NCBI GenBank assembly: GCA_022768465.1
Contig: JALELZ010000016.1
Location: 1-57,151 of the forward strand
Origin: Lachnospiraceae bacterium
Lineage (GTDB): Bacteria > Bacillota > Clostridia > Lachnospirales > Lachnospiraceae
Length of the DNA: 57,151 nucleotides
Reading direction: 5' to 3'
Position numbers and translations under genes: made by a program. The notes beneath the pieces are model-generated. The model was not told where the DNA came from, did no database searches, and was given only the letters and a program-made list of their open reading frames with translations. Shown here in pieces: positions 14,313-32,784 of this stretch (position 1 is its first letter; each line of letters starts with the position of its first letter).

Positions 14313-15067
14313 TGAATACAGAGATAAAACGAATACTTGAGGATGTTAAAAGCGGAGCCATGTCTGTAGAGGATGCAGAGCTTAAGATAAAAATGGAACC
14401 GTTTTCAGATCTCGGCTATGCAAAAATAGATCATCACAGAAAGATTCGTCAGGGAGCTGCAGAGGTTATATACGGAGCCGGAAAGACTCCTGAGCATATT
14501 ATAGGAATTGTTAAAAATCTCAAAGAACATGGACACGATGCCATTCTTATAACGCGTATGGATAAGGAAAAGGCTGCTGCTGTTGCAAAGGAAGTGGAGC
14601 TTAACTATCATTCTGACTGCGGTATCGGAATAGTCGGAGAGCTGCCTGAACCTGACGGAATCGGGAAAATAGTTATCTGTACAGGCGGAACAAGCGACAT
14701 TCCTGTTGCTGAGGAAGCGGCGCTTACGGCAGAAATATACGGTAATGAGGTAGTAAGGCTTTTTGACGTCGGTGTAGCCGGACTTCACAGGCTGCTTGCT
14801 CATTCAGAAGAGCTTATGCAGGCAAGCGTTATAATCGCCATAGCCGGAATGGAAGGAGCCCTTGCAAGCGTTGTAGGTGGTCTTGCCGATTGCCCTGTAA
14901 TCGCAGTTCCTACAAGTGTGGGCTACGGGGCAGCCTTCAATGGTATAGCAGCATTGCTTTCTATGCTTAATTCATGCGCAAGCGGAGTTTCAGTTGTAAA
15001 TATTGATAATGGTTTTGGTGCAGGCTATCTTGCAAGTATGATAAATCATGAGGTGAGAAGAAAATGA
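14312..15067 (+). CDS. larB: LarB, NaAD carboxylase/hydrolase
   Basis: LarB carboxylates nicotinic acid adenine dinucleotide at C5 and releases AMP, the first step to the nickel-pincer cofactor. The 251-residue length is normal. The C-terminal two thirds are AIR-carboxylase-like (IVICTGGTSDIPVAEEAA, GVAGLHR, IAIAGMEGALASVVGGLADCPVIAVPTSVGYG). The N-terminal FSDLGYAKIDHHRKIRQGAAEVIYG is the LarB-specific part. It overlaps larE (TGATG) and larC (ATGA), so the operon is tightly coupled. Confidence 0.95.
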   Translation: MNTEIKRILEDVKSGAMSVEDAELKIKMEPFSDLGYAKIDHHRKIRQGAAEVIYGAGKTPEHIIGIVKNLKEHGHDAILITRMDKEKAAAVAKEVELNYHSDCGIGIVGELPEPDGIGKIVICTGGTSDIPVAEEAALTAEIYGNEVVRLFDVGVAGLHRLLAHSEELMQASVIIAIAGMEGALASVVGGLADCPVIAVPTSVGYGAAFNGIAALLSMLNSCASGVSVVNIDNGFGAGYLASMINHEVRRK

Positions 15068-15906
15068 AAACATTGTATTTGAATCTTGGAATGGGCGCAG
15101 CAGGAGATATGCTGACAGCAGCTTTATTTGAGCTTTTAAGCGATACAGATAAGGAAAAAGCACTTGAAGCACTTAAGGAGCTCAATATACCTGGTGTTGA
15201 ATTTGTACCTGAAAGATCCGAAAAATGCGGTATTGTCGGAACACATATGAGTGTTATAGTTAACGGTACAGAGGAAAGTGAGGAGATGTTTGCTCACAGC
15301 CATGCACATACTCACGACCATGAACATTCACATGATCATGACCACAGCGCTTGTGAAGCAGGCTCTGCAGAGGCATCAGATAATATAGCGGCAGAGGCTG
15401 ACAAGAATGAAAGTGCTGAAAATGCAAAGGTTAAAATGAATCTGCCGGATGATGTCAGAGCCGATTTCAGAGAAATATACAGGATCATCGGAAAGGCTGA
15501 AAGCAAGGCACACGGAGGCCCTGTTAAGCAGATACATTTTCATGAGGTAGGTGAAATTGATGCTGTAGCTGATATTTCTGCTGCATGTCTCCTTATGAGA
15601 ATGATAGCTCCGGAGCAGGTAATAGCTTCTCCTGTCAATGTTGGCTGGGGCCAGGTAAGATGTGCGCACGGAATCATGCCTGTGCCTACTCCTGCAACTG
15701 CAAACATACTTAAGAACGTGCCTATCTACAACAACAATATTAAGGGTGAGCTTTGCACACCTACAGGCGCTGCGCTCCTTAAGCATTTTGTTACAACATT
15801 CGGGCCTATGCCTCAGATGAAGGTGTCAAAAATAGGCTACGGAATGGGCAAAAAGGATTTCGAAGCAGCAAACTGTGTTGTGGCTATGCTTGGAGAAACC
15901 GACTGA
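15064..15906 (+). CDS. larC: LarC N-terminal part (LarC1), separate cistron
   Basis: LarC is the CTP-dependent cyclometallase that inserts nickel into the cofactor. This 280-residue protein covers the N-terminal domain: NLGMGAAGDMLTAAL at the start, HFHEVGEIDAVADI, INVGWGQVRCAHG-like segment, PTPATANILKNVP and GELCTPTGAALLKHF, ending after GYGMGKKDFEAANCVVAMLGE. A His-rich stretch at about 78-94 (H-S-H-A-H-T-H-D-H pattern) probably binds nickel. The protein stops at TGA 15904-15906, where most LarCs continue. The C-terminal domain is encoded separately 79 bases downstream. Confidence 0.95.
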   Translation: MKTLYLNLGMGAAGDMLTAALFELLSDTDKEKALEALKELNIPGVEFVPERSEKCGIVGTHMSVIVNGTEESEEMFAHSHAHTHDHEHSHDHDHSACEAGSAEASDNIAAEADKNESAENAKVKMNLPDDVRADFREIYRIIGKAESKAHGGPVKQIHFHEVGEIDAVADISAACLLMRMIAPEQVIASPVNVGWGQVRCAHGIMPVPTPATANILKNVPIYNNNIKGELCTPTGAALLKHFVTTFGPMPQMKVSKIGYGMGKKDFEAANCVVAMLGETD

Positions 15907-15985: not shown

Positions 15986-16450
15986 ATGACTGCGGATATT
16001 GATTTAGAACTGAATGATGAGATCTCAGAGCTTTCTGCCAATGTCGACGACATGACGGCAGAAGAGATAGGCTATGCCTTTGACAGACTGCTTGAGGCAG
16101 GAGCCGTGGATGTTTATGCTCTTCCGGCAGTGATGAAAAAGAACAGGCCCGGTACTATACTCAATGTTTTATGCAGAGAGGATAAAAAACAGGATGTGAT
16201 AAGAGCTATGTTCAAGCACACGCGTACGATAGGAATACGCGAAAAGCTTATGTCAAGATATATACTTAAGCGTGAGTTTGAAACGATAGAAACACCTGAC
16301 GGAGATGTAAATGTGAAGCATGTTTTTGGCTACGGAACAAGCAGAGAAAAGCTTGAATATGATGATCTTGCTGCTATCGCTTCTAAGCGCGGCATAAGCA
16401 TTGCTGAGGCAAGACAGTATGCGGAGAGCTTCAGGAAGCAGGATAAGTAG
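15986..16450 (+). CDS. larC2: LarC C-terminal part (LarC2), separate cistron
   Basis: The 154 residues match the C-terminal domain of LarC: ELSANVDDMTAEEIGYAFDRLLEAGAVDVY, MKKNRPGTILNVLC, TRTIGIRE and the final KYD-type region. In Lactobacillus this half is joined by a programmed frameshift. Here the larC2 frame has stops at 15917 and 15980, so a shift cannot join the two halves. It must be translated on its own, from ATG 15986 with a weak GAAAGG about 13 bases upstream. A 7-bp inverted repeat (TTTCATA 15936-15942, TATGAAA 15964-15970) overlaps that site. Confidence 0.9.
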   Translation: MTADIDLELNDEISELSANVDDMTAEEIGYAFDRLLEAGAVDVYALPAVMKKNRPGTILNVLCREDKKQDVIRAMFKHTRTIGIREKLMSRYILKREFETIETPDGDVNVKHVFGYGTSREKLEYDDLAAIASKRGISIAEARQYAESFRKQDK

Positions 16451-17926: not shown

Positions 17927-17943
17927 AATTGTATGATACAATT
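17927..17943. promoter_or_regulatory. 17-bp perfect palindrome between MFS and regulator genes
   Basis: AATTGTATGATACAATT is an exact inverted repeat (8+1+8), the typical shape of an operator for a dimeric repressor. It lies 44 bases before the response regulator gene and 112 before the MFS gene, so it could act on either or both. No protein can be assigned. Confidence 0.5.
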
Positions 17944-17986
17944 AACAGGTATTCAGAAAGTAGTACATATAATAGGAGAGCATAAA

Positions 17987-18670
17987 ATGGATGATAAGGT
18001 ACTGATAGTCGATGATGACAAATCGGTAATAGAGATACTTTATAAGGTTATAAGGAGCAACGGCATTGACGCCGATCTTGCTCACAGCGGAGAAGACGCT
18101 ATATTGATGGTGGAAAAAGGAAAGTATGACTGCATACTTCTTGACATTAACATGCATGGTATTGACGGCTTTGACGTTATCAAGATATTAAGAGAGCGTA
18201 ATATAACAACACCGATAATCGTTGTCAGCGGAAGAAAAGAGGATTATGATCAGCTGTTTGGACTTGATATTGGTGCTGATGATTATGTGACGAAGCCATT
18301 TAATCCTGTTACGCTCGGAGCCAAGGTCAAGGCTATGATCAGGCGAAGCAAGGGCAGTCATCAGGGTGAGGATAATACTATATCAGCAGGCCCGTTCATG
18401 TATAACACAAGCACATTAAGATTATATAAGAACGGTGAGGAGCTTAATCTTACCTCTAAGGAAAATGCTATGATGAAGCTGTTTATCGATAATGTCAACA
18501 GAATATTCTCAAAGGATATGATCTATGAGATGGTTTGGGGAGACAGTGTCATCGATGAAAATGCGATCATGGTTTACATTAACAGATTGAGACAAAAGGT
18601 TGAGGATGATCCTTCCCATCCAAAATTTATTCAGAATGTAAGAGGACTCGGATATAAATTTGTAGTTTAA
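17987..18670 (+). CDS. OmpR/PhoB-type response regulator
   Basis: The receiver domain has the acidic pair at about 9-11, phosphorylation site D53 (CILLDINMHGIDGFD) and K103 (YVTKPFN). A C-terminal winged helix (about 130-227) ends YINRLRQKVEDDPSHPKFIQNVRGLGYKFVV. It is the DNA-binding partner of the next gene, an NtrB-like kinase, which is an unusual pairing (OmpR-type regulators normally pair with HAMP-HisKA kinases). Its position immediately upstream of the surface-fibre operon makes that operon the leading target. The start at 17987 follows GGAGAG. Confidence 0.9.
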   Translation: MDDKVLIVDDDKSVIEILYKVIRSNGIDADLAHSGEDAILMVEKGKYDCILLDINMHGIDGFDVIKILRERNITTPIIVVSGRKEDYDQLFGLDIGADDYVTKPFNPVTLGAKVKAMIRRSKGSHQGEDNTISAGPFMYNTSTLRLYKNGEELNLTSKENAMMKLFIDNVNRIFSKDMIYEMVWGDSVIDENAIMVYINRLRQKVEDDPSHPKFIQNVRGLGYKFVV

Positions 18671-18674
18671 ATGT

Positions 18675-20441
18675 ATGAAGCATGGCGGTGTAGATAGAAA
18701 AAAATATTTCAAGGTTATTCTCTTAGGAATTCTGTTTGTAATCGCAGGTGCGCTTTTTACAATTAACAGCAACAGACAAAGCCATAGGCTTGTATTTTCC
18801 CAGCAGAAGGAAAATCTTTTAGAGCTTGCAAAGTCGACGGATAAAAACCTCGAGAATATCATATCGAGAATTCAGAATCAGATTTATTATATAACCACAG
18901 ATGTGGATTTTAAAAAGGCTGAGCAGGAATATATTAACGAAGGTCTGGCCTATAATCTTTGGAACACCCTGAGATATAATTCTCTTTGCGATACCGATCT
19001 TATCGCAAGTATTGTGGTCACGGTCGGAGATAAGGCGGTAATGGTCTCAAAGGAATCTTACAGAGGGGAATATACCTTCTATGACAGTCTCGGCAACTAC
19101 AGACTCAGACTCTGCAAGGCACCTGACGAAAAATATTATATGGCCTTTGCCTTCAAAGGAGGCTATGACCAGATTCGTTACTATGCCTTAATGGATCTGG
19201 AAGAGCTTTACATGCAGATAACCGATGAGGAGCTTGGAGACATTAACAAGATCATTTTATATAATGATAAGCTGAGTTTTATTATCACCAATAGCGGAAA
19301 CAGGGTCAGAGCGAGCAGGATAATTGATTATCTCTATGAAGGAAATGAGAGTCTCGGCAATTACATAAAATCAAAATGTGAGAAAAAAGAACCGTCTGCA
19401 GATGTATTGGAATTTGTAAGCGGACTTGGCGTAAAAGAAAAAAAATACGTTGCGGTATATCCTGTTGCAGTCAGTGAAAACAAACTCTTCACATTGGCAA
19501 TACTTACAGATTATGCCAGAGTTATTTCACCTATAAAAGGCATCAATTACAGTCTTATAATAAGCATATTGATATTTACTGTAGGAATTGCACTGCTGCT
19601 GTTTGGCTTCTCGCAGATGAAAGAGGATCATGAACAAGCAGATAAAACACTTGTTGAGCTTCAGGAAAAAAATAAGGCAATGAAAGCTCTGCTCAGGCAG
19701 ACACGAGAGCTTGAGCATGTGCAGCGTCTGGAGCTGCTCGGAACCATGACATCCGGAATTTCGCACGAGTTCAACAACCTGTTAACGCCTATTATGGGAT
19801 ACAGCATAATGTCGCTGGAAATGCTTCCGGAGGGCAATGATGAGCTGTCAGAAAATATAATTGAGATTTATAATGCTTCAAAGAAGGCAAAAGATATTGT
19901 AAAGAGAATATCCGAGCTTTCTAAAAAGAACAGCTTAGATTCTTTAACTATTATAGACATAGATACACTGTGCAGTAAGGTTTTATTAATGCTTAATCCG
20001 GCAAAGCCTGAGAATGTTGAAATTAAAACAAATTATGCAACATACGGGTATAAGACAAAGGCTAATGAAACACAGATGACACAGGTGCTGATGAATGTCA
20101 TAATCAATGGTTTTCATGCAATGAGTGAGAAGGGCGGCACACTTACTGTGTCAACGTCAATATCTGTGAACAGCATGATCAGCATTTCTATTAAGGACAC
20201 AGGAACAGGTATACCGTCTGATGTTATCTCACATATTTTCGATCCGTTCTTTACAACAAAGGAGGCCGGCAAAGGAACGGGACTAGGCCTTGCAATAGTA
20301 AAGAATATCATAGATGAACTGAACGGAAAGATTGAGATCCATTCGCAGGAGGGAAAAGGCACTGAATTTATTGTAAAGCTGCGCATCTATGACGAAAGAT
20401 TAGATGAAGAAAAGATAGAACCGTCCGAAAAAGATCAATAA
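18675..20441 (+). CDS. Membrane sensor histidine kinase
   Basis: The 588 residues give TM1 (about 13-30), an extracytoplasmic sensing domain (31-290) with no recognised fold, TM2 (291-312), a short coiled coil (315-345), a HisKA domain with H364 in SGISHEFNNLLTP, and an ATPase domain with DTGTGIP, FDPFFTTK and GKGTGLGLAIV. The H-box HEFNN and wide N-box resemble the NtrB subfamily. It follows the response regulator by 4 bases. The start has no clear ribosome binding site, so translation is probably coupled. The C-terminal tail is charged. Confidence 0.9.
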   Translation: MKHGGVDRKKYFKVILLGILFVIAGALFTINSNRQSHRLVFSQQKENLLELAKSTDKNLENIISRIQNQIYYITTDVDFKKAEQEYINEGLAYNLWNTLRYNSLCDTDLIASIVVTVGDKAVMVSKESYRGEYTFYDSLGNYRLRLCKAPDEKYYMAFAFKGGYDQIRYYALMDLEELYMQITDEELGDINKIILYNDKLSFIITNSGNRVRASRIIDYLYEGNESLGNYIKSKCEKKEPSADVLEFVSGLGVKEKKYVAVYPVAVSENKLFTLAILTDYARVISPIKGINYSLIISILIFTVGIALLLFGFSQMKEDHEQADKTLVELQEKNKAMKALLRQTRELEHVQRLELLGTMTSGISHEFNNLLTPIMGYSIMSLEMLPEGNDELSENIIEIYNASKKAKDIVKRISELSKKNSLDSLTIIDIDTLCSKVLLMLNPAKPENVEIKTNYATYGYKTKANETQMTQVLMNVIINGFHAMSEKGGTLTVSTSISVNSMISISIKDTGTGIPSDVISHIFDPFFTTKEAGKGTGLGLAIVKNIIDELNGKIEIHSQEGKGTEFIVKLRIYDERLDEEKIEPSEKDQ

Positions 20442-20489: not shown

Positions 20490-20534
20490 AATCGTCAGCA
20501 GATAAAAAACAAAAATTCTGTTGACGATTTTTTT
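20490..20534 (+). terminator. Terminator after the kinase gene
   Basis: AATCGTCA (20490-20497) and TGACGATT (20522-20529) plus CAG/CTG form the stem, followed by TTTTTTT. It closes the two-component transcript. The promoter of the next operon begins inside its second arm. Confidence 0.85.
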
Positions 20535-20549
20535 GATGACTACTACAAT
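20521..20549 (+). promoter_or_regulatory. Promoter of the surface-fibre operon
   Basis: TTGACG (20521-20526), 17 bases, TACAAT (20544-20549). The -35 box lies in the descending arm of the preceding terminator hairpin, so one sequence serves both. Confidence 0.65.
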
Positions 20550-20559
20550 AGGCAGTACT

Positions 20560-20616
20560 CGAAAAACAAATCTAAAATCTGAGTTTCTTAAATCAGCGGT
20601 CTGTTTTCGTTTTTTT
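20560..20616 (+). terminator. Second terminator-like hairpin, in the fibre operon leader
   Basis: CGAAAAACA (20560-20568) and TGTTTTCG (20602-20609) pair with one bulge, enclose a smaller CTGA/TCAG hairpin, and lead into TTTTTTT (20610-20616). It sits between the promoter and the ribosome binding site of the first gene, where it could act as an attenuator. Confidence 0.55.
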
Positions 20617-20637
20617 CAGAGGAAAGGACAAAAGAAT

Positions 20638-22161
20638 ATGAATAGGGAACTGAGCATGGATAAACTGCGCTTATTTTTCCTGACGGCTTCTGTAAGCCTG
20701 ATTGCCTTGGGCTCATGTATGCGTACGGATGCAGCAGACAGAAAAATTCGTCTGTTTAATGATTCCGGAAGCATAAAGCGTGAGATAACAGGCAGCAGTT
20801 TATTTGAAAAACCTGTGATGCCAGGCAGCAATGAAACTGCCGATCTGACCATACAAAACGGGCTTGATAAGTCTGTTTATTATGATGTCAGATGCTCATC
20901 GGATGCTGCGAATGAGTTCTATGATGCCTTGCTTTTGAAAATTTCTGATGAGAATGGAACGATCCTTTATAATGGATTAGCTAAAGACACAGCTGTATCT
21001 ATAGGACCGCAAAATTCCGGAAAGACAAAAAATATCACTCTTGAGCTGTCGCTTCCAAAATCTGCTGATGAAAAAATAGCAGGCAAAAAAGCAAATTTTG
21101 ATTTGCAGCTTAGCTTTAAAAGTGAGGCTGTATCTTCAGGAGAAAGCAAACCGTCGGAAGGTGCTGACGTAGGTTCGGCCGGAAATACCGGCAGTACCGG
21201 AGGCAGCACAGGTTCGTCGGGAGGTTCAAGCAGCAGTGAAGGCATAGCGTCAGGCGGAGGCACTTCATCAGGCAGTAATTTTTCCGGAGGAATATCTAAG
21301 CCGGGAGGAAATTCCAAGCCGGGAGGACATGGATCATCAGGAACAGGTTCAGGAGGAACCGGAAATAAGGGATATCATACCGGTACTTCCTCATCCGGAG
21401 CAGCAAATCAAGACAAAAACATTGGTGATTCAAACGGTGTTTCAGAAGAAGGAAATATAGTTACGGGAAGCCGTTTTGACAGAAACTTTATTTCCGGAGC
21501 TTCGGATAGTTCACCCGAAACAAATTCAGCAAAGCATGATTACAGTATAAGTGATTTTTTCGGACATCATAGTGCTTCAGGAGGCGGAGCCGAACGGATC
21601 TATGGGAAACCGGATATTACGCTTACAAAAGGAATTGACAGCGGAAGCTGGGAACAGGATAAGGAAGGCTTCTGGAGATATGTTTTAAAAGGCGGAAATC
21701 ACATTAAATCCGGCTTTGCATTTATAAAAAATCCATACAAAAATAACAGCGGTGAATATTGCTGGTATTTCTTTGATGATGAGGGAAGACTTTGCATAGG
21801 CTGGATAAAAAGAGAAAATGACGTATGGTATCATTCACATGAGGTTTCGGACGGAGATCTTGGAGCAATAGAAGCGGGCTGGATCAAAGATTCTGAGGAC
21901 AAAGCACTCTATTATACAAGTGAGCTTGATGCCAAAATGCATACAGGCTGGATAGGCTTCAGGGCTAAAAAGGATCAACCGATAGACTATTATTATTTTG
22001 CTTCACTTAAGGATACCTACAGACAAAACTGGTTTTTCAATACTGCTGCAGGCAGATGGCTTTATGACAAGTTGGGCTACAGATGTTATGGTTCAATGTT
22101 TAAGGATGAGAAAACACCGGACGGATACAGAGTAGGTAATGATGGAAGATGGATAAGGTAA
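20638..22161 (+). CDS. Secreted fibre-associated protein with Gly/Ser linker and wall-binding repeats
   Basis: A 507-residue protein. It has a signal sequence (10-27) with LGSC at 24-27, a possible lipobox. Residues about 35-165 form a beta-sandwich like that of SipW-dependent surface proteins: PGSNETADLTIQNGLDKSVYYDV, a 'DENGTILYNGLAKD' hairpin, and 'LELSLPKSADEKIAGKKANFDLQLSFK'-type ending. Residues 170-285 are a Gly/Ser-rich linker with repeated GGSSG and KPGG units. Residues about 340-507 carry GW-type cell-wall-binding repeats. It may anchor the fibre to the wall. The start at 20638 follows AGGAAAGGA. It overlaps the signal peptidase gene by 13 bases. Confidence 0.8.
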   Translation: MNRELSMDKLRLFFLTASVSLIALGSCMRTDAADRKIRLFNDSGSIKREITGSSLFEKPVMPGSNETADLTIQNGLDKSVYYDVRCSSDAANEFYDALLLKISDENGTILYNGLAKDTAVSIGPQNSGKTKNITLELSLPKSADEKIAGKKANFDLQLSFKSEAVSSGESKPSEGADVGSAGNTGSTGGSTGSSGGSSSSEGIASGGGTSSGSNFSGGISKPGGNSKPGGHGSSGTGSGGTGNKGYHTGTSSSGAANQDKNIGDSNGVSEEGNIVTGSRFDRNFISGASDSSPETNSAKHDYSISDFFGHHSASGGGAERIYGKPDITLTKGIDSGSWEQDKEGFWRYVLKGGNHIKSGFAFIKNPYKNNSGEYCWYFFDDEGRLCIGWIKRENDVWYHSHEVSDGDLGAIEAGWIKDSEDKALYYTSELDAKMHTGWIGFRAKKDQPIDYYYFASLKDTYRQNWFFNTAAGRWLYDKLGYRCYGSMFKDEKTPDGYRVGNDGRWIR

Positions 22162-22679
22162 AGCCTGAGGTAAAGCCCAAGGTAAAGCCTAAGGTAAAAG
22201 TCGCTTCAAAATCACATCATAACATAATTCAAATAACATCCCCAAAAATGAAAATTAAGATGAGGCAGTATTGCGCACTCATTGCAGAATGTATATCAGC
22301 AGTTGTGACTGTCACTGCGATTCTGATAACGATAGGCTGTGCATATATCAATATAAATGAGCGTATAAGCGGAGAAATGACTTTTTTAGCAGGTCACAAG
22401 CTTGTTTATATTGAGAGCGGCTCGATGGAACCGGCAATAAAGACAGGCGCTGTCATAATCATCAGAAAAGCAAAATTTGAGGATGTTGAAAACGGAGACA
22501 TAATAACATTTGAGACTCCGGAAGGATATGTTACTCACAGACTTGTAGGAGAAGATGCAGAAGCTCGTAAAAACGGAGCCGAGGCTTTCCTTATAACAAA
22601 AGGCGATGCCAACAGTATAGATGATATAGAAAGGCTTGATCCTGAAGACATTAGAGGAGTTGTTGTAAAGATTTTTTAA
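22149..22679 (+). CDS. SipW-type signal peptidase I
   Basis: A 176-residue S26B (ER/archaeal-type) signal peptidase. Catalytic S92 is in ESGSMEPAI, H130 replaces the bacterial lysine in VTHRL, and D153 lies in TKGDANS, giving a Ser-His-Asp set. One transmembrane helix is present at about 44-66. Such SipW enzymes process TasA/camelysin-type precursors in Bacillus, and the adjacent genes encode such precursors. The N-terminus has a tandem lysine-proline repeat (KPEVKPKVKPKVKV) not usual in the family. Its start overlaps the preceding gene and has only a weak GGAAG directly before it; a later start such as M34 is possible. Confidence 0.9.
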   Translation: MDKVKPEVKPKVKPKVKVASKSHHNIIQITSPKMKIKMRQYCALIAECISAVVTVTAILITIGCAYININERISGEMTFLAGHKLVYIESGSMEPAIKTGAVIIIRKAKFEDVENGDIITFETPEGYVTHRLVGEDAEARKNGAEAFLITKGDANSIDDIERLDPEDIRGVVVKIF

Positions 22680-22691
22680 ATAGGAGAATTT

Positions 22692-23384
22692 ATGAGAAAA
22701 ATGTTTAATAAACGTAATTCAGTAAAAAGAAACATCAATAAGCATGCAGTAAAAACATTTTCAGTTGCAGCGGCTGCAATCTGCCTTATCGGAACAGCAG
22801 CAGCCTCATCGGCATATTGGACAGATAAAATAAGCTTAAATCAGGAAGTGAGCGCAATGACTATAGGTGTAAGATATGATTCCAACAGTCTTGGACTTGA
22901 GCAGGCTGATGCATATCTTCCGGGAGAAAGCAGAGATTTTAATTTTAAAGTCATTAATTCAGGAGATATTTCTGTTGATATCAAACCTGTTATAACAATA
23001 ACTTCAACAGAGGATATGAAAAAGGGCGGATCAGAATTTCTGATTGCAGATGAATCCGGAAATGAGATAAATGGATATACAAAAAAATGTTATAAGGATA
23101 ACGGAACAGCTCTTTCAGAGTCTGAGGTATCAGAGGGAGGCACCTTTAAAAAGGTTGAGTATACATTGACGGATGAAAAAACATTAGCGGGAAGCAGACA
23201 AAAGGAAAGCGCTGAAGGCGAAATCGATACGGAGCAGCAGTATAAATACAAGCTTGTTCTGAGCGATAATACTGAAAATGATTTTAAGGGCGCATCTGCC
23301 TCAATTGATGTCAGCACATATGCTATACAGCACAGAAACAGAGAAGAGGGCGGTGATTGGATCAGCATCGCAAGTAAGAAATGA
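22692..23384 (+). CDS. TasA/CalY-type fibre subunit candidate
   Basis: A 230-residue secreted protein with a basic N-terminus, a hydrophobic core (24-40) and the SipW-type signal motif SSAYWTDKISLNQEVSA at the end, followed by a mature part of beta-strand character (PGESRDFNFKVINSGDISVDIKPVITI). The final part is charged. The layout matches TasA and camelysin, the fibre proteins processed by SipW: the AYW/FxD signature right after the core, then GVRYDSNS. It follows the signal peptidase by 12 bases and overlaps the next gene by 4 (ATGA). A role as fibre subunit is inferred from this; identity to TasA itself is low. Confidence 0.75.
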   Translation: MRKMFNKRNSVKRNINKHAVKTFSVAAAAICLIGTAAASSAYWTDKISLNQEVSAMTIGVRYDSNSLGLEQADAYLPGESRDFNFKVINSGDISVDIKPVITITSTEDMKKGGSEFLIADESGNEINGYTKKCYKDNGTALSESEVSEGGTFKKVEYTLTDEKTLAGSRQKESAEGEIDTEQQYKYKLVLSDNTENDFKGASASIDVSTYAIQHRNREEGGDWISIASKK

Positions 23385-24310
23385 GGAAATTAAACAGTCT
23401 TATTTTGCCTTGCGCCATTTTTACAGCAGCGGTCAGTGTTACAGCTACCGCTGCCTACTATGAAGCCATGATAAGCCATGAAACCTGTCTGGTGAAAGCT
23501 GCTGACATTTCTTTTGGAAGCTCAGAAGGGATAAGCTCTGACTTAAGCTCACAAAATAACAGGCTCCTTCCGTTTGAAGAAGGCGAAAGCTTTGATATAA
23601 GCTTTAGTACCAGGTATGACGGAGATATAGCAGCATACGCAGTACCTGCACTGAAAACATTTATTAGCGGAATGGATAAAGATGACATTATCAGAATTTC
23701 TGACGGGAAAAATGACATCTGCATAGATTCATCCGGAAGCGGAATACTGTATTCGGATATAGCTTTGCTTAAGCCTGGCGATGTAATAGAAAAAAACTAC
23801 CATATCACTGTCATAAAGCACAGCGGAACTAAGCCACTTAAATTAGGATATGAATTTTCACTTGCAGCGGTACAGAAAAAAGGAAATGAAACGCTTATTG
23901 AAAGCGGTATTAGTTCAAAAGACCTGTATGGTGCTATCACAAATAGGAATGGTTTATCAGGGGAAATAAAAGGCTTCAGTGAACTTATTACAAAGCGTGA
24001 CGGTGCAGCAGAATCCGATGAAGAAGGCGGCATAAGATATTATTCAGTCAGTCTGACACCGCAGACAGAAAAGACAACAACAAACAGCGAAACCTATAAA
24101 TGGTATGCAAAAACATCTGATACAGAAGAAAAAATAGTTAGTTTAAATAAAATATTAGAACTTACTATAAATAAATACAATATATCAAATGGTTTGAGTG
24201 TGAGATATGAGGTAGCCAATGAAGCCGGTTATATATCATCAAAGCGATATATATTCGAAATAAACGCTGATGAACTTGAATGCAGAACGGAGGACTATGT
24301 GTATGAATAA
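23381..24310 (+). CDS. Second SipW-type secreted protein
   Basis: The 309-residue protein begins with a short hydrophobic core ending VSVTATAAYYEAMISHE, again the AYY-x-A pattern expected of a SipW substrate. The mature part is beta-rich with a 'LKPGDVIEKNYHITV' segment like the PGD... strand of TasA-type domains, and a later segment ending TYKWYAKTSDTEE that resembles Ig/Fn-like surface repeats. No enzyme motif is seen. It may be a minor fibre subunit or tip protein. It overlaps the genes on both sides by a few bases. Confidence 0.7.
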   Translation: MRKLNSLILPCAIFTAAVSVTATAAYYEAMISHETCLVKAADISFGSSEGISSDLSSQNNRLLPFEEGESFDISFSTRYDGDIAAYAVPALKTFISGMDKDDIIRISDGKNDICIDSSGSGILYSDIALLKPGDVIEKNYHITVIKHSGTKPLKLGYEFSLAAVQKKGNETLIESGISSKDLYGAITNRNGLSGEIKGFSELITKRDGAAESDEEGGIRYYSVSLTPQTEKTTTNSETYKWYAKTSDTEEKIVSLNKILELTINKYNISNGLSVRYEVANEAGYISSKRYIFEINADELECRTEDYVYE

Positions 24311-25463
24311 TAGCAGTGAGTCTTTACATAGCGTTATTCAAAAGGCTGTTAAAGCTGGTGTGCTTATGCTTCTTATAATCAGCTTTATCTGCGTGACTTG
24401 TGATGAAAGCTTTGCAGGAATCACTGGTGAAGGAATTGAGTCGGATCCGCTGACAGGAATCGTGCAAAAAGGAGATTATTTTAAAGCTGACAGCTTCGTG
24501 AAAAATCTTGCAGAAATCAACGGAGCTATTATTACACTTGAAAATTGCTTCGAAGCTAAGCGCTTTGAATTTATTCTTGATGCAGGAGACGGAGCATTTC
24601 CGGATGGGGATAACAAAAAGAACGGAAGCATCTATTACGGAGAGCTTCTGAATGATGCTATAGGAAGGGTGACTTCTGTTCAGGCGGTACCGGAACTTAA
24701 GGACAGTACTTTTACGGGCTGGTATATACGCGGAAATCACGTTTTAAAATCATCTGCCGTGGCTGATGGAGCAAAATCTAATAACAGGATTATGGAAGCA
24801 GGCCTTAAAGGAGATGAAATTGCTTCAGATGGGGTGCGATTCCTGATAGACACTTCCTATACAGAGGATATAGAGCTTGCAGATGTAGATGATAGCGGAG
24901 CATGCATTATCAGAGCAATGTGGAGAAAGAACAAACCCTGTGAGCCTGGTGACGGGAATGAAGCATTGGATAAGACATTAACTGATGCTGCGGCAAAGCT
25001 TGATATTTGGGACAGTGATAATGTTTGTAATAAATCTATCGAATATTTAGATAGTTGTTCGGATGCAAAAGCTTACAGTGCAAGACATGGAACAACAAAA
25101 TATCAGTACGGGAGAATTATGCTTACTGCTGAAACCAGCAATGCTAAAGATTACACATGGTTTGTAAAAAGAGCAGGTGATAACGGATATACAATGCTTT
25201 CAGAAAAAGGCGAGACTTGTCTTTTGTCAAAACTAAAAGGCATTGATAACGGAATGCTTGTCAAATGCCGGGTCGGAGTCGCCGGCAAAGGAAATGAACA
25301 GACTGAAAAAGGTAACAGTTTTATCGAATATGAGACAAAGCTCACAATATATTCTCTTCCGAAAATACTGGATACAGGTATCCTGATAGATGGTAATAAG
25401 GCTAATATAAAAGTTAGTGAAAGTGCAAGATCTGATAATAATAAAACAGAAGGAGGGGTTTAA
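24303..25463 (+). CDS. Secreted protein, probable Ig/InlB-like repeats
   Basis: A 386-residue protein with a signal peptide (hydrophobic core about 17-34, LMLLIISFICVTC) and a segment FILDAGDGAFPDGDNKKNG...FTGWYI (about 85-145) like the InlB/Listeria-Bacteroides repeat, which ends in F-x-G-W. A later part (about 255-350) has YTWFVKRAGDNGYTMLSEKG and CRVGVAGKGNE, resembling an Ig-like domain. No sorting motif is seen. The start at 24303 follows GGAGG at 9 bases; an in-frame ATG 6 bases earlier is too close to it. It is likely exported with the fibre proteins. Confidence 0.7.
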   Translation: MNNSSESLHSVIQKAVKAGVLMLLIISFICVTCDESFAGITGEGIESDPLTGIVQKGDYFKADSFVKNLAEINGAIITLENCFEAKRFEFILDAGDGAFPDGDNKKNGSIYYGELLNDAIGRVTSVQAVPELKDSTFTGWYIRGNHVLKSSAVADGAKSNNRIMEAGLKGDEIASDGVRFLIDTSYTEDIELADVDDSGACIIRAMWRKNKPCEPGDGNEALDKTLTDAAAKLDIWDSDNVCNKSIEYLDSCSDAKAYSARHGTTKYQYGRIMLTAETSNAKDYTWFVKRAGDNGYTMLSEKGETCLLSKLKGIDNGMLVKCRVGVAGKGNEQTEKGNSFIEYETKLTIYSLPKILDTGILIDGNKANIKVSESARSDNNKTEGGV

Positions 25464-25464
25464 G

Positions 25465-26673
25465 ATGAACAGCTCAATAAGCCGTTCCACGGCTGCTGTT
25501 TTAACAGCGAGTATTTTTGCATTATGTATCTGTACTGTCAAAGGCTCTGCGAATATTTCGTCTGCAAAAGAAACTGATTCAATTAATAAGATATATACCG
25601 CTACAAAAGAAGAATATCCAACTGAGAAAGATCTTTTGATAAACGATAGGGTGCCATTAGGTGAGGATATGTCAGACGACGGAACAGTGTCTGATGAAGA
25701 TACTTTCGACGACAGAATACTTTTTGATGATACGAAAGCAACGGCATCTTTGAAAAAAAGCTTTACTGACAACATGCTTATTGAGCCTGCGTCTATGTAT
25801 AAAACGCTTTATGTAGACTGGGAGAGACACTATTGGACAGCGTCCTACAACGGTTCAAACATAATTCTTTCATTTGATATTGATTTTTATGCAATCGGTG
25901 GCGGTGCTGACAGCTTTGCACCTAAATACACATTCGGCTTTAGTAAGACCAGTAGTAATCCATCCAACGTTTTAGAATGTACGAATGCAAATAATGCTTC
26001 TAAAGTATCTTCACGTGTGGGAAGCGTTAATGTGACAAGCTTTACAAGAACCGGCGGAGATACGCCTTACAGCAGGCATCTTATACTTAAGGGATATGTG
26101 ACAGTTGATGCCGGAAGAGTGTCATCGTTTGCAACCGGAAGATTCAGATATTTAGCAGGCGGATGGAAGGATGGAGACTGGTCAGCGGCAGATAATAATG
26201 ATTTTAATGTAACCAATTTCTGGTCTGTTTATAAGCAGGCGTCCTGCGGACATCCTTCATGGAGCTACAGCCAAAACGGAGCCGGAGGACACATTGCAAA
26301 ATGCAACAACTGCGGCTTTAGTAAGCAGCTTGGTCATAATATAGTTGACGGAACGTGTTCATTATGCGGATATAAAAGCCTTGTAAAGGTGATGCTTAAC
26401 TATGAGCTTAATAACAGAACCTTAAGCGAGGAGCTTGAACTTGCACCGGGCTTGACATATCAGCCCAAAATGATAAAAGGCTATAAAAAACCGGAGCCTG
26501 TGACTATACCAAACGATGGAGGAAGCATAAGCATAATATATGAACCTATAACTTATACAATGTCGGATGATGAGGATGAGTATCTGCTTAAATATGATGA
26601 CAGCCTCTTCCTTCCGTTAAAGGAAAGAAAAGGCTATATACATAAAGGTTACAGAGTTATTCAGGTTTCATAG
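25465..26673 (+). CDS. Secreted Cys/His-rich surface protein, last gene of fibre operon
   Basis: A 402-residue protein with a signal peptide (to about 30), a linker, and a beta domain (about 100-255; [20 protein letters not shown]). A C/H block follows (CGHPSWSY...[10 protein letters not shown]...LGHN...CSLCGY), typical of Clostridia surface proteins and likely zinc-bound. The end (about 310-402) has a MucBP-like segment ([19 protein letters not shown]) and a last InlB-like strand [13 protein letters not shown]. The C-terminus looks short for such a repeat, so the gene may be truncated. AGGAGGGG precedes the start. The last 13 bases overlap the convergent uvrB stop. Confidence 0.7.
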
Positions 26674-28819: not shown

Positions 28820-30379
28820 ATGAGTAAAAGACCGGCAGTTTTGATCATTATGGACGGATTGGGGCTTAGAGAAGAATCTGAGGGGAATGCTTTAAAAGCG
28901 GCCAAAACACCTGTCCTTGATAAGCTTATGAAGGAATGTCCTTTTGTAAAAGGGTATGCTTCAGGCTCCTATGTGGGACTTCCTGACGGACAGATGGGTA
29001 ACTCAGAGGTAGGACACCTCAATATGGGAGCCGGACGTATAATATATCAGGAGCTTACACATATATCCAGATGTATATCCGACGGCAGCTTTTTTGAAAT
29101 ACCTGAGTTTAAGGAAAATATAGAAAATTGCAGGAAACATGATTCCGCACTGCATCTGTACGGACTTTTGTCCGACGGAGGAATACACAGCCATATTTCA
29201 CATTTATACGGACTGTTAGAGCTGGCAAAAAGAAACGGCTTGAAAAAGGTATATGTTCATTGTTTTATGGACGGAAGAGATACTCCTCCGACCAGCGGCA
29301 TGAAGTATATCAAGGATCTTGAAAAAAAGATGAAAGAGCTCGGCACCGGAAAGATAGCAACGGTTATAGGCCGATACTATGCGATGGATCGAGATAAAAA
29401 CTATGATCGTATCGAAAAGGCATACAGAGCCATGACTATGGGAGAAGGCGTTAAGGCTGACTCTGCTGAAGATGTACTTATTAATTCATATGCTGACGGA
29501 GTAACGGACGAGTTTGTGCTTCCGTCAATAATAATGGACGAAGACGGTCCGGTTGCAACTATAAAGGACAATGATTCCATTATCTTCTTTAATTTCAGAC
29601 CTGACAGAGCAAGACAGATAACAAGAGCCTTTTGTGATGATGATTTCCCTTATTTTGACAGAGGAAACGGAGGAAGGAGACTCAATGTCGACTATACCTG
29701 CTTTACTCAGTACGATGAGACGATAAAGCATGATCAGGTTGCGTTCAAAAAAGAAGTTTTAAATAATACCTTCGGAGAATATATATCAAAGCACGGAAAG
29801 AAACAGCTGCGTATTTCAGAAACAGAAAAATACGCGCATGTTACATTTTTCTTTAACGGCGGACGTGAAGAGCCTTATGAAGGCGAGGACAGGATACTTG
29901 TTCCTTCAAGAAAGGATGTTGCGACATATGATCTTCTGCCTGAAATGAGTGCTGATGAGGTCTGTGACAAGCTTTGCGAGGCCATAAAAACAGAACGATA
30001 TGACGCTATAATATGTAATTTCGCCAATACAGATATGGTTGGACATACAGGAGTTATGAGCGCGGCAATAAAGGCGGTTGAGACTGTAGACAGCTGTGTA
30101 GGACGTGTATGTGATGCGGTTAAGGCTGTAGACGGAGTTATGTTTATATGTGCCGATCACGGAAATGCTGACATGATGTGCTATCCGGGAACCAAGAATC
30201 CTCACACCGCACATACTACAAGCCCTGTACCGTTCATTCTTTTTAATGCAGATAAGGGTATTGGCTTAAGAGAAAACGGTGTTCTTGCGGACATAGCACC
30301 TACAATGCTTGAGCTTATGGGACTTGACGTACCGAGTGAAATGACGGCAAGATCACTTCTCATCAGGACAGGACAATGA
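28820..30379 (+). CDS. gpmI: 2,3-bisphosphoglycerate-independent phosphoglycerate mutase
   Basis: GpmI interconverts 3- and 2-phosphoglycerate in glycolysis using manganese. The alkaline-phosphatase-fold metal site and catalytic serine are visible: IMDGLG near the start and QMGNSEVGHLNMGAGR. HGVRDTPP-like MDGRDTPPTSG, NFRPDRARQITRAF, YAHVTFFFNGG and CADHGNADMM follow. Length 519 is usual. AAGAGGCAAG precedes the start. Its stop overlaps the comEC start (ATGA), a coupling between glycolysis and a competence gene that is probably coincidental. Confidence 0.97.
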   Translation: MSKRPAVLIIMDGLGLREESEGNALKAAKTPVLDKLMKECPFVKGYASGSYVGLPDGQMGNSEVGHLNMGAGRIIYQELTHISRCISDGSFFEIPEFKENIENCRKHDSALHLYGLLSDGGIHSHISHLYGLLELAKRNGLKKVYVHCFMDGRDTPPTSGMKYIKDLEKKMKELGTGKIATVIGRYYAMDRDKNYDRIEKAYRAMTMGEGVKADSAEDVLINSYADGVTDEFVLPSIIMDEDGPVATIKDNDSIIFFNFRPDRARQITRAFCDDDFPYFDRGNGGRRLNVDYTCFTQYDETIKHDQVAFKKEVLNNTFGEYISKHGKKQLRISETEKYAHVTFFFNGGREEPYEGEDRILVPSRKDVATYDLLPEMSADEVCDKLCEAIKTERYDAIICNFANTDMVGHTGVMSAAIKAVETVDSCVGRVCDAVKAVDGVMFICADHGNADMMCYPGTKNPHTAHTTSPVPFILFNADKGIGLRENGVLADIAPTMLELMGLDVPSEMTARSLLIRTGQ

Positions 30380-32784
30380 AAAGACCGCTTGTATATGCGG
30401 CGGTCATGACAATATGCGGCACTGCCTGCGGTATCGGAGACTGCTCCGGTGCCGTCAGGCTGTCAGCGGCGATAGCTGCACTTCTTATAATTCTTTCATT
30501 CAAAAAAAATTCACTTTTACTTATCTTTTCTGTTCTATTATTTTCAACGGCATTTTTCAGAGGTGCAATAGTATATCAAAGGTATACTGGGGAAGAGTGT
30601 TTAGAATTCTTTGAAAAATATAAGGCCTCCAATCCCGGACAGTTTGATTACAGCATATATCTAAAGTCACTCGGAATCTGCAGTTATTCTGATTATGAAG
30701 CTTATATGCAGAAGAAAAACAACGAGACTGAAGATAAAGCTGAGGCCACATATAAAATCAGAAGTATATGCTCCGAAGTATTGGATGAAGAGCTTGATAA
30801 TGAGGATGCCGGACTCTATAAGGCTATACTTTTAGGAGACCGTTCAGATATGGACACAAATACAAGTGAGCTTTACAAAGCAGCCGGAATATCACATCTT
30901 TTAGCGGTAAGCGGACTTCATATAGGTATAATAGGCGGAGGCTTTTTCAAACTGCTGACGAAATTGAAAATAAAGAAAAGGAAAGCGACACTTATAGCAT
31001 CTGCGGCAGTATACTTTTATATGCTTTTATGCGGGGTATCGGGGTCGACCTTAAGGGCGGCAATAATGCTGATAATTGCTTTCGCAGCAGCTGATCACGG
31101 CAGGAGCTATTGCATGAGATCGGCACTGGCGATAGCTTCAATTATAACTGTATTAAGGAATCCGTATATGATATTTACCGCAGGATTTCAGTTATCATTC
31201 GGGGCTGTCATCGGTATAATTTATACCGGAAAGCTCATGACGAAAGCAGTGGAGAATCAGCTATCACGGCTCAGAGATAAAAAGGAGCTTAAGACAGTGC
31301 CGGTATCTGACCTCGGGTTTTCCGGTAAACGCATAAAAAATGACTGCAGACTACCGGCTTTGATAAAAACAATAATTATAAGTGCGGCAATACAGCTTAC
31401 ACTGCTTCCGGTTACTGCATGGCATTACTTTGTGTTTCCGGTATAAGGAATTGCCCTAAATCTTATTGTCATCCCGCTTATGACAGCAGTGGTATATTCA
31501 GGTCTTGCTACACTTGTTTTGGGTTTAGCAATAAAGTTTACGCTGACAATAACCGGATATTGGCATATGATTTTTATCAGAAAGCTCTCAGATATACTGG
31601 CTTCGATTTGTATTGCTCCCGGACATTTTATATTGAGAGCTTATGACCTTATGTGCAATGCGGTGCTTAAGCTTCCCTATGCACAGGTATGTATCGGAAG
31701 GCCTAAGCCTTTTAATATTCTCTTATACTATATTATATTGGCAGTAATGATTAACTATGCGGCAAACGGAAAGAACTCAACAGGCGCAATGCCGAGTGCT
31801 TATATCAAAGAAAAAACTGTTTGGCCCGACAGATATTTAAATATCTCATTATTTCTCAAAATACTTATCTTTAATATAATTTTCATCTTAAATGCCGATA
31901 TGCTCAAATTCAGAGATAATGAACGCTTTTATGTAACTGTGCTTGATGCCGGGCAGGGCGACAGTATGGTTATTAAATATAAGGAGCATTATATTCTTGT
32001 GGACGGAGGCTCTAATTCAAATAAGAAATTCGGAGAACGTGTGCTGTATCCCTATCTGCTGTCAAAAGGTGTGACAAAAATCGATGCCGCCGTAATAAGT
32101 CACAGTGACAGTGATCATACAAACGGAATCAAATATATTATCAGTGAAAGGAAGGATATAAACATAGCTAAGCTTGTGTTTCCTAAAGCCGCAGCTTTTG
32201 AAAATGAAAGCTATAGAGAACTTGAAGATCTGTATAAGAATAGGAGTGATACTAATAAAAGTGATAATAAAGGCAAAGGAGAAGTCATTTATCTGGAAGA
32301 CGGCATGATGCTTATGAAGCAGGATGAAATGAGTTTGAGCTGTATTTATGCCGGAAATGCTTCAGGCTATACTGATGCAAATAATGAATCAGATGTTTTG
32401 TTACTTAAAAATGCGAACTTCAGCATGCTGTTTACCGGAGATATGCCAACAGAAGAAGACGAAGCATTTCTAAGCAGATATCAGAACTACAAAAAAAACG
32501 GCAGCAGCTTTGATAATGATGGAGAAAAAGCTTATTCAAAGGCTGATGAAGGTATAACAGTGCTCAAGGCTGCACATCACGGAAGCAAAACATCGAGCTC
32601 TGACAGATTCTTAGATGAAGTATCACCGGAAAGTGCTGTACTTTCATACGGTAAAAACAACCGTTACGGTCATCCTTCAAAGGAAGTGGTAAATCGTCTT
32701 GAGGATAGAGATATCATAATGGTATCAACCAGTGAATGCGGAGCACTGCATATAAATGAAAAGGGGATATTTGCTGCAAAATAA
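30376..32784 (+). pseudogene. comEC: ComEC/Rec2 DNA-uptake channel, interrupted by an in-frame stop
   Basis: One frame of 803 codons reads through ComEC with a single TAA at 31444-31446 (codon 357). Before it lie the N-terminal part and the competence domain (ILLGDRSDMD, GISHLLAVSGLHIGI, CGVSGSTLRAAIMLI). After it come GIALNLIVIPLMTAV, more membrane helices, and the C-terminal metallo-beta-lactamase-like domain (VLDAGQGDSMVIK, SHSDSDHTNG, FTGDM, AAHHGSKTSSS). Homologues usually have a Tyr (FPVYG-type) where the TAA stands, one base away. ComEC carries single-stranded DNA across the membrane in competent cells. Both parts look otherwise intact, so the break is recent or a sequencing error. Confidence 0.85.

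Follow-up and report, generated by a model that had tools for sequence, protein, structure and literature searches.

The DNA analyzed here is contig JALELZ010000016.1 of a Lachnospiraceae bacterium (GCA_022768465.1), a stretch of 57,151 nt that we call the window. It carries a conserved operon of six genes, A-sipW-B-C-D-E, which probably produces a surface fibre of the TasA/BsaA type that needs no sortase and is bound non-covalently to the cell wall. SipW-dependent fibres have been studied in Bacillus and partly in Clostridium perfringens, and the attachment of such fibres to the cell in gut Clostridia is little covered in the open-licence literature. The system is most likely a known fibre theme in which a wall-binding domain takes the place of the customary covalent anchor. 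One 6-kb operon codes for both the subunits and a recognizable, modular anchor, and the same anchor domain occurs with another tail in related clusters, which makes the anchoring of the fibre and its part in gut and rumen colonization testable. The genes are as follows.

20638-22161, + strand: gene A, with a signal peptide, an anchor domain, a Gly/Ser linker and choline-binding-type repeats
22149-22679, + strand: sipW, a SipW-type (endoplasmic reticulum (ER)-type Ser/His) signal peptidase; 13-nt overlap with A
22692-23384, + strand: gene B, with a SipW-type signal end; a TasA-superfamily candidate for the major fibre subunit; 12-nt gap after sipW
23381-24310, + strand: gene C, with a second SipW-type signal end and, in the structural model, two beta-sandwich domains; 4-nt overlap with B
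24303-25463, + strand: gene D, secreted, of a family with Listeria-Bacteroides repeats; 8-nt overlap with C
25465-26673, + strand: gene E, secreted, with an invariant eight-residue Cys/His block; 1-nt gap after D

An earlier reading made from the sequence alone (hereafter the sequence-only reading) had described six tightly packed, partly overlapping genes, and this holds: all lie on the + strand between 20638 and 26673, in one operon of about 6 kb. Gene E overlaps by 13 nt with a convergent gene, presumably uvrB. Whether the six genes travel together, a question left there to genome comparison, is answered by 11 loci of the same genus (the window included), which share the order A-SipW-B-C-D-E; nine are complete, and contig ends truncate L024 and L027. 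The set thus behaves as a conserved unit. All six frames are open in the 9/9 complete loci, and the mean protein identity over these nine is 37% for A, 43% for SipW, 39% for B, 28% for C, 36% for D and 29% for E, as against 85% for the neighbouring UvrB. Since the frames stay open and the order is kept despite mean identities of 28-43%, the six open reading frames are more than chance. For each gene, distances correlate with the UvrB distances (rho 0.48-0.81; 500 permutations, p 0.002-0.008). When the operon proteins are compared with one another, rho ranges from 0.29 to 0.74, with p > 0.05 for three of the 15 pairs (SipW-C, SipW-E and C-D). These patterns fit vertical descent with fast divergence, as for surface proteins.

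SipW matches at E <= 1e-10 occur in 17 of 61 genomes, and 11 same-genus genomes besides that of the window match at E <= 1e-24. The unit or part of it is carried by 13 of the 25 genomes of the genus, counting G007 and G010, where E, next to uvrB, is the one gene of the six that was seen. In G008 and G011, larC directly adjoins uvrB, and the site has no MFS gene, two-component genes or operon. In G014, one of the 11 same-genus genomes matched by SipW, a lone SipW-type gene lies between uvrB and other genes, and A-E are missing (L028 7944-8492, the same as L105 969-1517); it is perhaps a remnant. A contig search with SipW alone found no relative, and one with the B alignment found 10 loci. These ten named relatives are all metagenome-assembled genomes, nine of Lachnospiraceae and one of Eubacteriales, four of which are labelled as from gut sites (cattle, goat (two) and roe deer). 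The proteins of the aligned A-SipW-B-C-D-E set recur, identical, in the ten named loci, and neither set is thus independent of the other.

The signal peptidase is of the SipW class. It scores 84.7 bits against TIGR02228 (ER-type signal peptidase I), over the curated cut-off of 51.85, and the residues S92-M93-E94 and H130-R131 are invariant across 12 aligned members, which bears out the Ser-His peptidase predicted earlier. Against the Bacillus SipW equivalog NF046067 it reaches 68.8 bits, far below the cut-off of 190. By eye, the signal ends of B (AYW) and C (AYY) are of SipW type, and those of A, D and E are ordinary small-residue sites. The two SipW-type ends named in the sequence-only reading are well founded: the W of B is invariant in 10 members, and C ends its signal in AYY, AFF, AWF or AYF across 9 members.

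Profile comparison shows a kinship of B with the TasA/camelysin superfamily. Aligned with members of the TasA family PF12389, it gave an hhalign probability of 90 over columns 6-186, with an E-value of 1.7e-6 for a single comparison; the controls SipW, D and E gave 0.4, 0.5 and 0.1 against TasA-family members. The first Foldseek match of the B model is the TasA fibre 8aur (E 4.7e-4), the sole PDB chain at E <= 0.001. The SipW-dependent signal TIGR04088 is found at E <= 0.1 in 4/10 B members (best 0.0028). The first 16 residues of B have a predicted local distance difference test score (pLDDT) below 50 in the model, and A1, W3 and T4 are nevertheless invariant; such a disordered yet invariant N-terminus is as expected for a donor strand without its partner, by the example of the TasA donor strand (PMC9674648). 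Searching PDB sequences with the B profile yielded a single hit, at chance level (E 0.89). One B member matches the NCBIfam model 'TafF' at 7.2e-4, and the papers found under that name are unrelated. The name of PF12389, Peptidase_M73, would allow B to be a camelysin-like secreted protease, an idea that we consider very improbable: it draws on that name alone, TasA, which belongs to that superfamily, serves as a fibre subunit (PMC9674648), and we rejected the idea because the HExxH motif is missing from all 10 B members (0/10).

Protein C is not clearly TasA-like. Its N-terminal part resembles B (hhalign probability 49), and its model has two beta-sandwich domains, the best Foldseek match being a shaft pilin (4.5e-6). 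TasA is absent from the 50 VIA-align matches listed for C, which does not exclude TasA.

Protein A combines an anchor domain with wall-binding repeats, in line with the Gly/Ser linker and repeats noted before; family scans suggest that these repeats are of the choline-binding type. Three families were considered, PF19127, PF19085 and PF01473. PF19127 (Choline_bind_3) was found in 9/11 A members at E <= 0.1 (best 2.8e-11), and the best repeat match of the window's A is to PF19085 (Choline_bind_2), with 20 bits, under the cut-off of 27. The N-terminal domain matches anchor-like proteins at three other Lachnospiraceae loci (L058, 37.9 bits; L056, 19.2; L055, 6.3), with a profile probability of 96.2, against 0.5 or less for the controls SipW, C, D and E. 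The anchors of L056 and L058 end, by eye, in sortase-type KTG-plus-membrane tails. These three loci were also among the matches of the B profile, which hits 6/397 genomes of the family, with a strong match in that of the window and weak ones in five others (E 5e-6 to 8e-4): three of the five weak matches, in L055, L056 and L058, fall within or beside a cluster that has a SipW-like gene (by eye) and BsaA-like subunits. Five proteins scanned from these clusters match TIGR04090 (the BsaA family) with E-values between 1.5e-17 and 1e-8, and one of the five exceeds the cut-off. In L116, from another genus, a protein ends in a module 47% identical to the repeat module of A over 185 aa, and it adjoins a protein with a SipW-type signal end; as it combines a weak match to the anchor domain with A-type repeats, it bridges the two kinds of anchor. 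At E <= 1e-30 the A profile matches 5/392 genomes of the order, and among the matches listed all but the window's own cover only the C-terminal module. In the genome of the window, a second protein has repeats of weak similarity (6.5e-9), and no sortase match was found in this genome (14/25 genomes of the genus have one). A would thus be a wall-binding module joined to the anchor domain of SipW clusters, with binding of choline or another wall polymer predicted from its sequence.

The analysis shows the gene order and its conservation, the class of SipW, the domains that make up A and the profile kinship of B; from these we infer the following mechanism. A, D and E would be exported through ordinary signal peptides, and the operon's SipW would cut B and C after their AYW/AYY-type ends, freeing an N-terminal strand. 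B would then polymerize by donor-strand exchange, this strand completing the beta-sandwich of the next subunit, and C may initiate, cap or decorate the fibre. A would form the base: its N-terminal domain would touch the fibre and its choline-binding-type repeats would grip a wall polymer. This role would be like that of TapA (PMC10151520) or CapP (PMC13082335) in Bacillus, which offer the parallels, and of the sortase-tailed anchors in other Lachnospiraceae SipW clusters.

Several results speak against a TasA-type fibre anchored in this way. No filament has been seen. The B model superposes on TasA with a template modelling score (TM-score) of just 0.45 and a root-mean-square deviation of 11.8, and TasA is absent from the 50 VIA-align matches listed for B, where integrins and pilins appear, which does not exclude TasA. 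B reaches 14.3 bits against TIGR04088, under the cut-off of 19; the PF12389 model itself matches neither B nor anything in the window's genome at E <= 0.1; and the hhalign probability is 8.5 between B and the BsaA-like set and 2.1 between C and the TasA family. As to the anchor, the anchor-domain match of L116 is weak (9.1 bits), and no SipW was seen in its 19.5-kb stretch. A link between the operon and the absence of sortase was also dropped, with sortase in 6/13 carriers and 8/12 non-carriers (p 0.43). Furthermore, TIGR04090 matches only one of the 10 B members (E 0.015), not the window's, and B stays under that family's cut-off. The supposition that B and C share a TasA-type fold is therefore upheld for B by profile and Foldseek rank and not by VIA-align, and for C no such fold was demonstrated.

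A rival reading is a surface coat, in which the SipW-cut B and C are held at the wall by A as single, unpolymerized adhesins. Evidence for a polymer is lacking, VIA-align matches B and C to adhesins, pilins and the biofilm scaffold RbmA as well as to unrelated beta-sandwiches, and fast divergence of all six proteins suits any exposed protein. However, TasA (PMC9674648), CalY/TasA (PMC13082335) and BsaA (PMC7395162) all form filaments, and the N-terminus of B is invariant yet unstructured in the model. We regard the coat as unlikely and favour the wall-bound fibre.

A broader proposal, which we advance tentatively and hold to be possible, somewhat short of probable, is that of a swappable anchor on a TasA-superfamily filament. 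Gut and rumen Lachnospiraceae would have, at the level of the genus, a fibre system whose anchor domain is joined to a sortase tail in some cases and to a choline-binding-type module in others, such that bacteria without sortase keep the fibre, and in which D and E are fast-diverging tip adhesins. For the wall-bound fibre favoured above, too, our guess from their position and composition is that D and E would be accessory or tip adhesins. PF09479 (Listeria-Bacteroides repeats) was found in 7/9 D members (best 2.4e-7), not in the window's own D. No clear Pfam family was found for E in our scan. Its Cys/His block, picked out in the sequence-only reading, has all eight Cys/His invariant across 9 members and would suit a metal site.

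Upstream of the operon lie a pair of two-component genes and a control region.

17933-18670, + strand: OmpR-type response regulator (Response_reg 6.2e-29, Trans_reg_C 4.5e-23), a neighbour of the operon
18675-20441, + strand: sensor histidine kinase (HisKA and HATPase, weak dCache), a neighbour of the operon
20490-20536, + strand: terminator-like hairpin with a U-tract (13-bp stem, -17.5 kcal/mol, z -5.75; 0/200 shuffles as good)
20521-20549, + strand: Sigma-70-type promoter-like site TTGACG-17-TACAAT (10/12 consensus bases), overlapping the 3' arm of the hairpin

The domain matches confirm the OmpR-type regulator and the HisKA/HATPase kinase. The position 20490, previously given as the start of the system, is the foot of the hairpin behind the kinase gene and not the start of the operon. 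The hairpin was missed by a consensus terminator scan because its 14-base loop exceeds the limit of 8 of that tool. We place the start of A at the ATG at 20638, ahead of the signal peptide; the TTG at 20521 given in the open reading frame list falls inside the promoter-like region. Promoter-like sites with 10-11 of 12 consensus bases occur 57-92 bp before A in 10/11 loci, the exception being L048, where no such site was found. Promoter-like sites often arise by chance in this region (24.8 expected, 40 found), and the window's site before A stands out least among the ten, with 0.087 of shuffles as good, against 0.017 or less for the others. In L046 a 23S rRNA gene ends ahead of the operon. We infer that the operon is its own transcription unit, and the regulator probably lies outside it. 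Four loci (L040, L041, L043 and L044) share AGTAACTT/AGTTACTT-type repeats around the -35 of the A promoter (by eye); these are absent from the window and are perhaps an operator.

The neighbouring pair might nonetheless control the fibre operon, as in C. perfringens, and belong to the system. We think this improbable as a whole; it is compatible with a wall-bound fibre. In the window and in G012 the pair lies next to the operon and points the same way, the sipW promoter of C. perfringens is bound by BsaR (PMC7395162), and full-length kinase homologues are found in 5/13 carriers and 0/12 non-carriers (Fisher p 0.039, uncorrected for kinship). On the other hand, a terminator-like hairpin and a separate promoter-like site stand between the kinase gene and A, and the pair adjoins the operon in just these two of the six loci that extend 1 kb or more upstream. 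Besides the window's genome, 4 of the 25 have a full-length kinase homologue; it is next to the operon in one of them, and in the other three, all carriers, the homologous pair lies away from the operon. Moreover, 8/13 carriers lack a full-length homologue (E <= 1e-40), and 3 non-carriers have partial ones. Of the label 'two-component-linked', what stands is that the genes are real and adjacent; the hairpin and promoter-like site between them and the count of 2/6 loci tell against the rest. We dropped the pair as a defining part of the system and keep a regulatory link as a possible one that does not define it. In L075 and L077, the regulators are 83-85% identical to the window's and the paired kinases just 43-44%, with a permease-like gene alongside, a pattern suggestive of a stable regulator and a fast-changing sensor.

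The closest setting described is sipW-bsaABCRSD of C. perfringens, where a SipW-dependent filament is made, BsaR/BsaS drive the operon and BsaA polymerizes without sortase (PMC7395162). With this published filament and two-component system, the view of an undescribed fibre in anaerobic Clostridia was too strong. Both operons have SipW, a SipW-dependent subunit, further secreted proteins and a two-component pair nearby, in an anaerobic Clostridium in that case, and share a sortase-free polymerization that was shown there and would apply in the window by inference. They differ in that the two-component genes are inside the operon there and outside it, set apart by the hairpin and promoter-like site, in the window; in that the window has a dedicated anchor with wall-binding repeats, whereas the authors suggest that BsaA polymers are not tightly wall-bound (PMC7395162); and in that the window's B is under the BsaA family cut-off.

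The tapA-sipW-tasA operon of B. subtilis has the same order of anchor/assembly protein, SipW and subunit, an overlap of the first two genes and a TasA-superfamily subunit (PMC9674648, PMC10151520). In contrast, A carries choline-binding-type repeats and had no match to the TapA family in the scans made, and C, D and E have no counterpart there. The sequence-only interpretation is thus partly supported, namely in the SipW-type processing, the kinship of B with TasA-like proteins, the wall-binding module on A and the conserved six-gene unit. The B. cereus TasA-CalY-CapP system shares sortase-independent filaments, a pair of SipW-type subunits and a protein that holds the wall through its C-terminal domain (PMC13082335). 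That domain of CapP is described as disordered, whereas A's consists of recognizable repeats, and CapP is likened to A by role only. The clusters of other Lachnospiraceae (L055, L056 and L058) share BsaA-family-like subunits, a SipW-like gene and the anchor domain of A, and those of L056 and L058 differ by sortase-type anchor tails and thioester-domain adhesins (TED_2), neither of which is in the window's operon. In our searches of the open-licence literature we did not find a choline-binding-type anchor or the D/E pair described. Beside the SipW clusters of L056 (9198-11813) and L058 (6958-9999) are large proteins with TED_2 and SpaA repeats, which suggests that BsaA-type fibres are paired there with covalent adhesins.

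The gene names UvrB, GpmI, LarB/LarC, ComEC-like and larC-like, as well as the transporter labels near distant two-component pairs, are putative assignments from the sequences. The larC-like gene is split in two open reading frames in the window (15064-15906 and 15986-16450) and in G012 (L026 935-1744 and 1806-2282), with a spacer of about 60-80 bases and open frames that do not overlap; in G008 it is a single one (L085 1-1344). The ComEC-like protein appears as two adjacent open reading frames that share one frame (30376-31446 and 31480-32784). Finally, a tRNA-Ser gene and, immediately behind it, a match to the Clostridiales-1 small RNA lie at 1978-2194.

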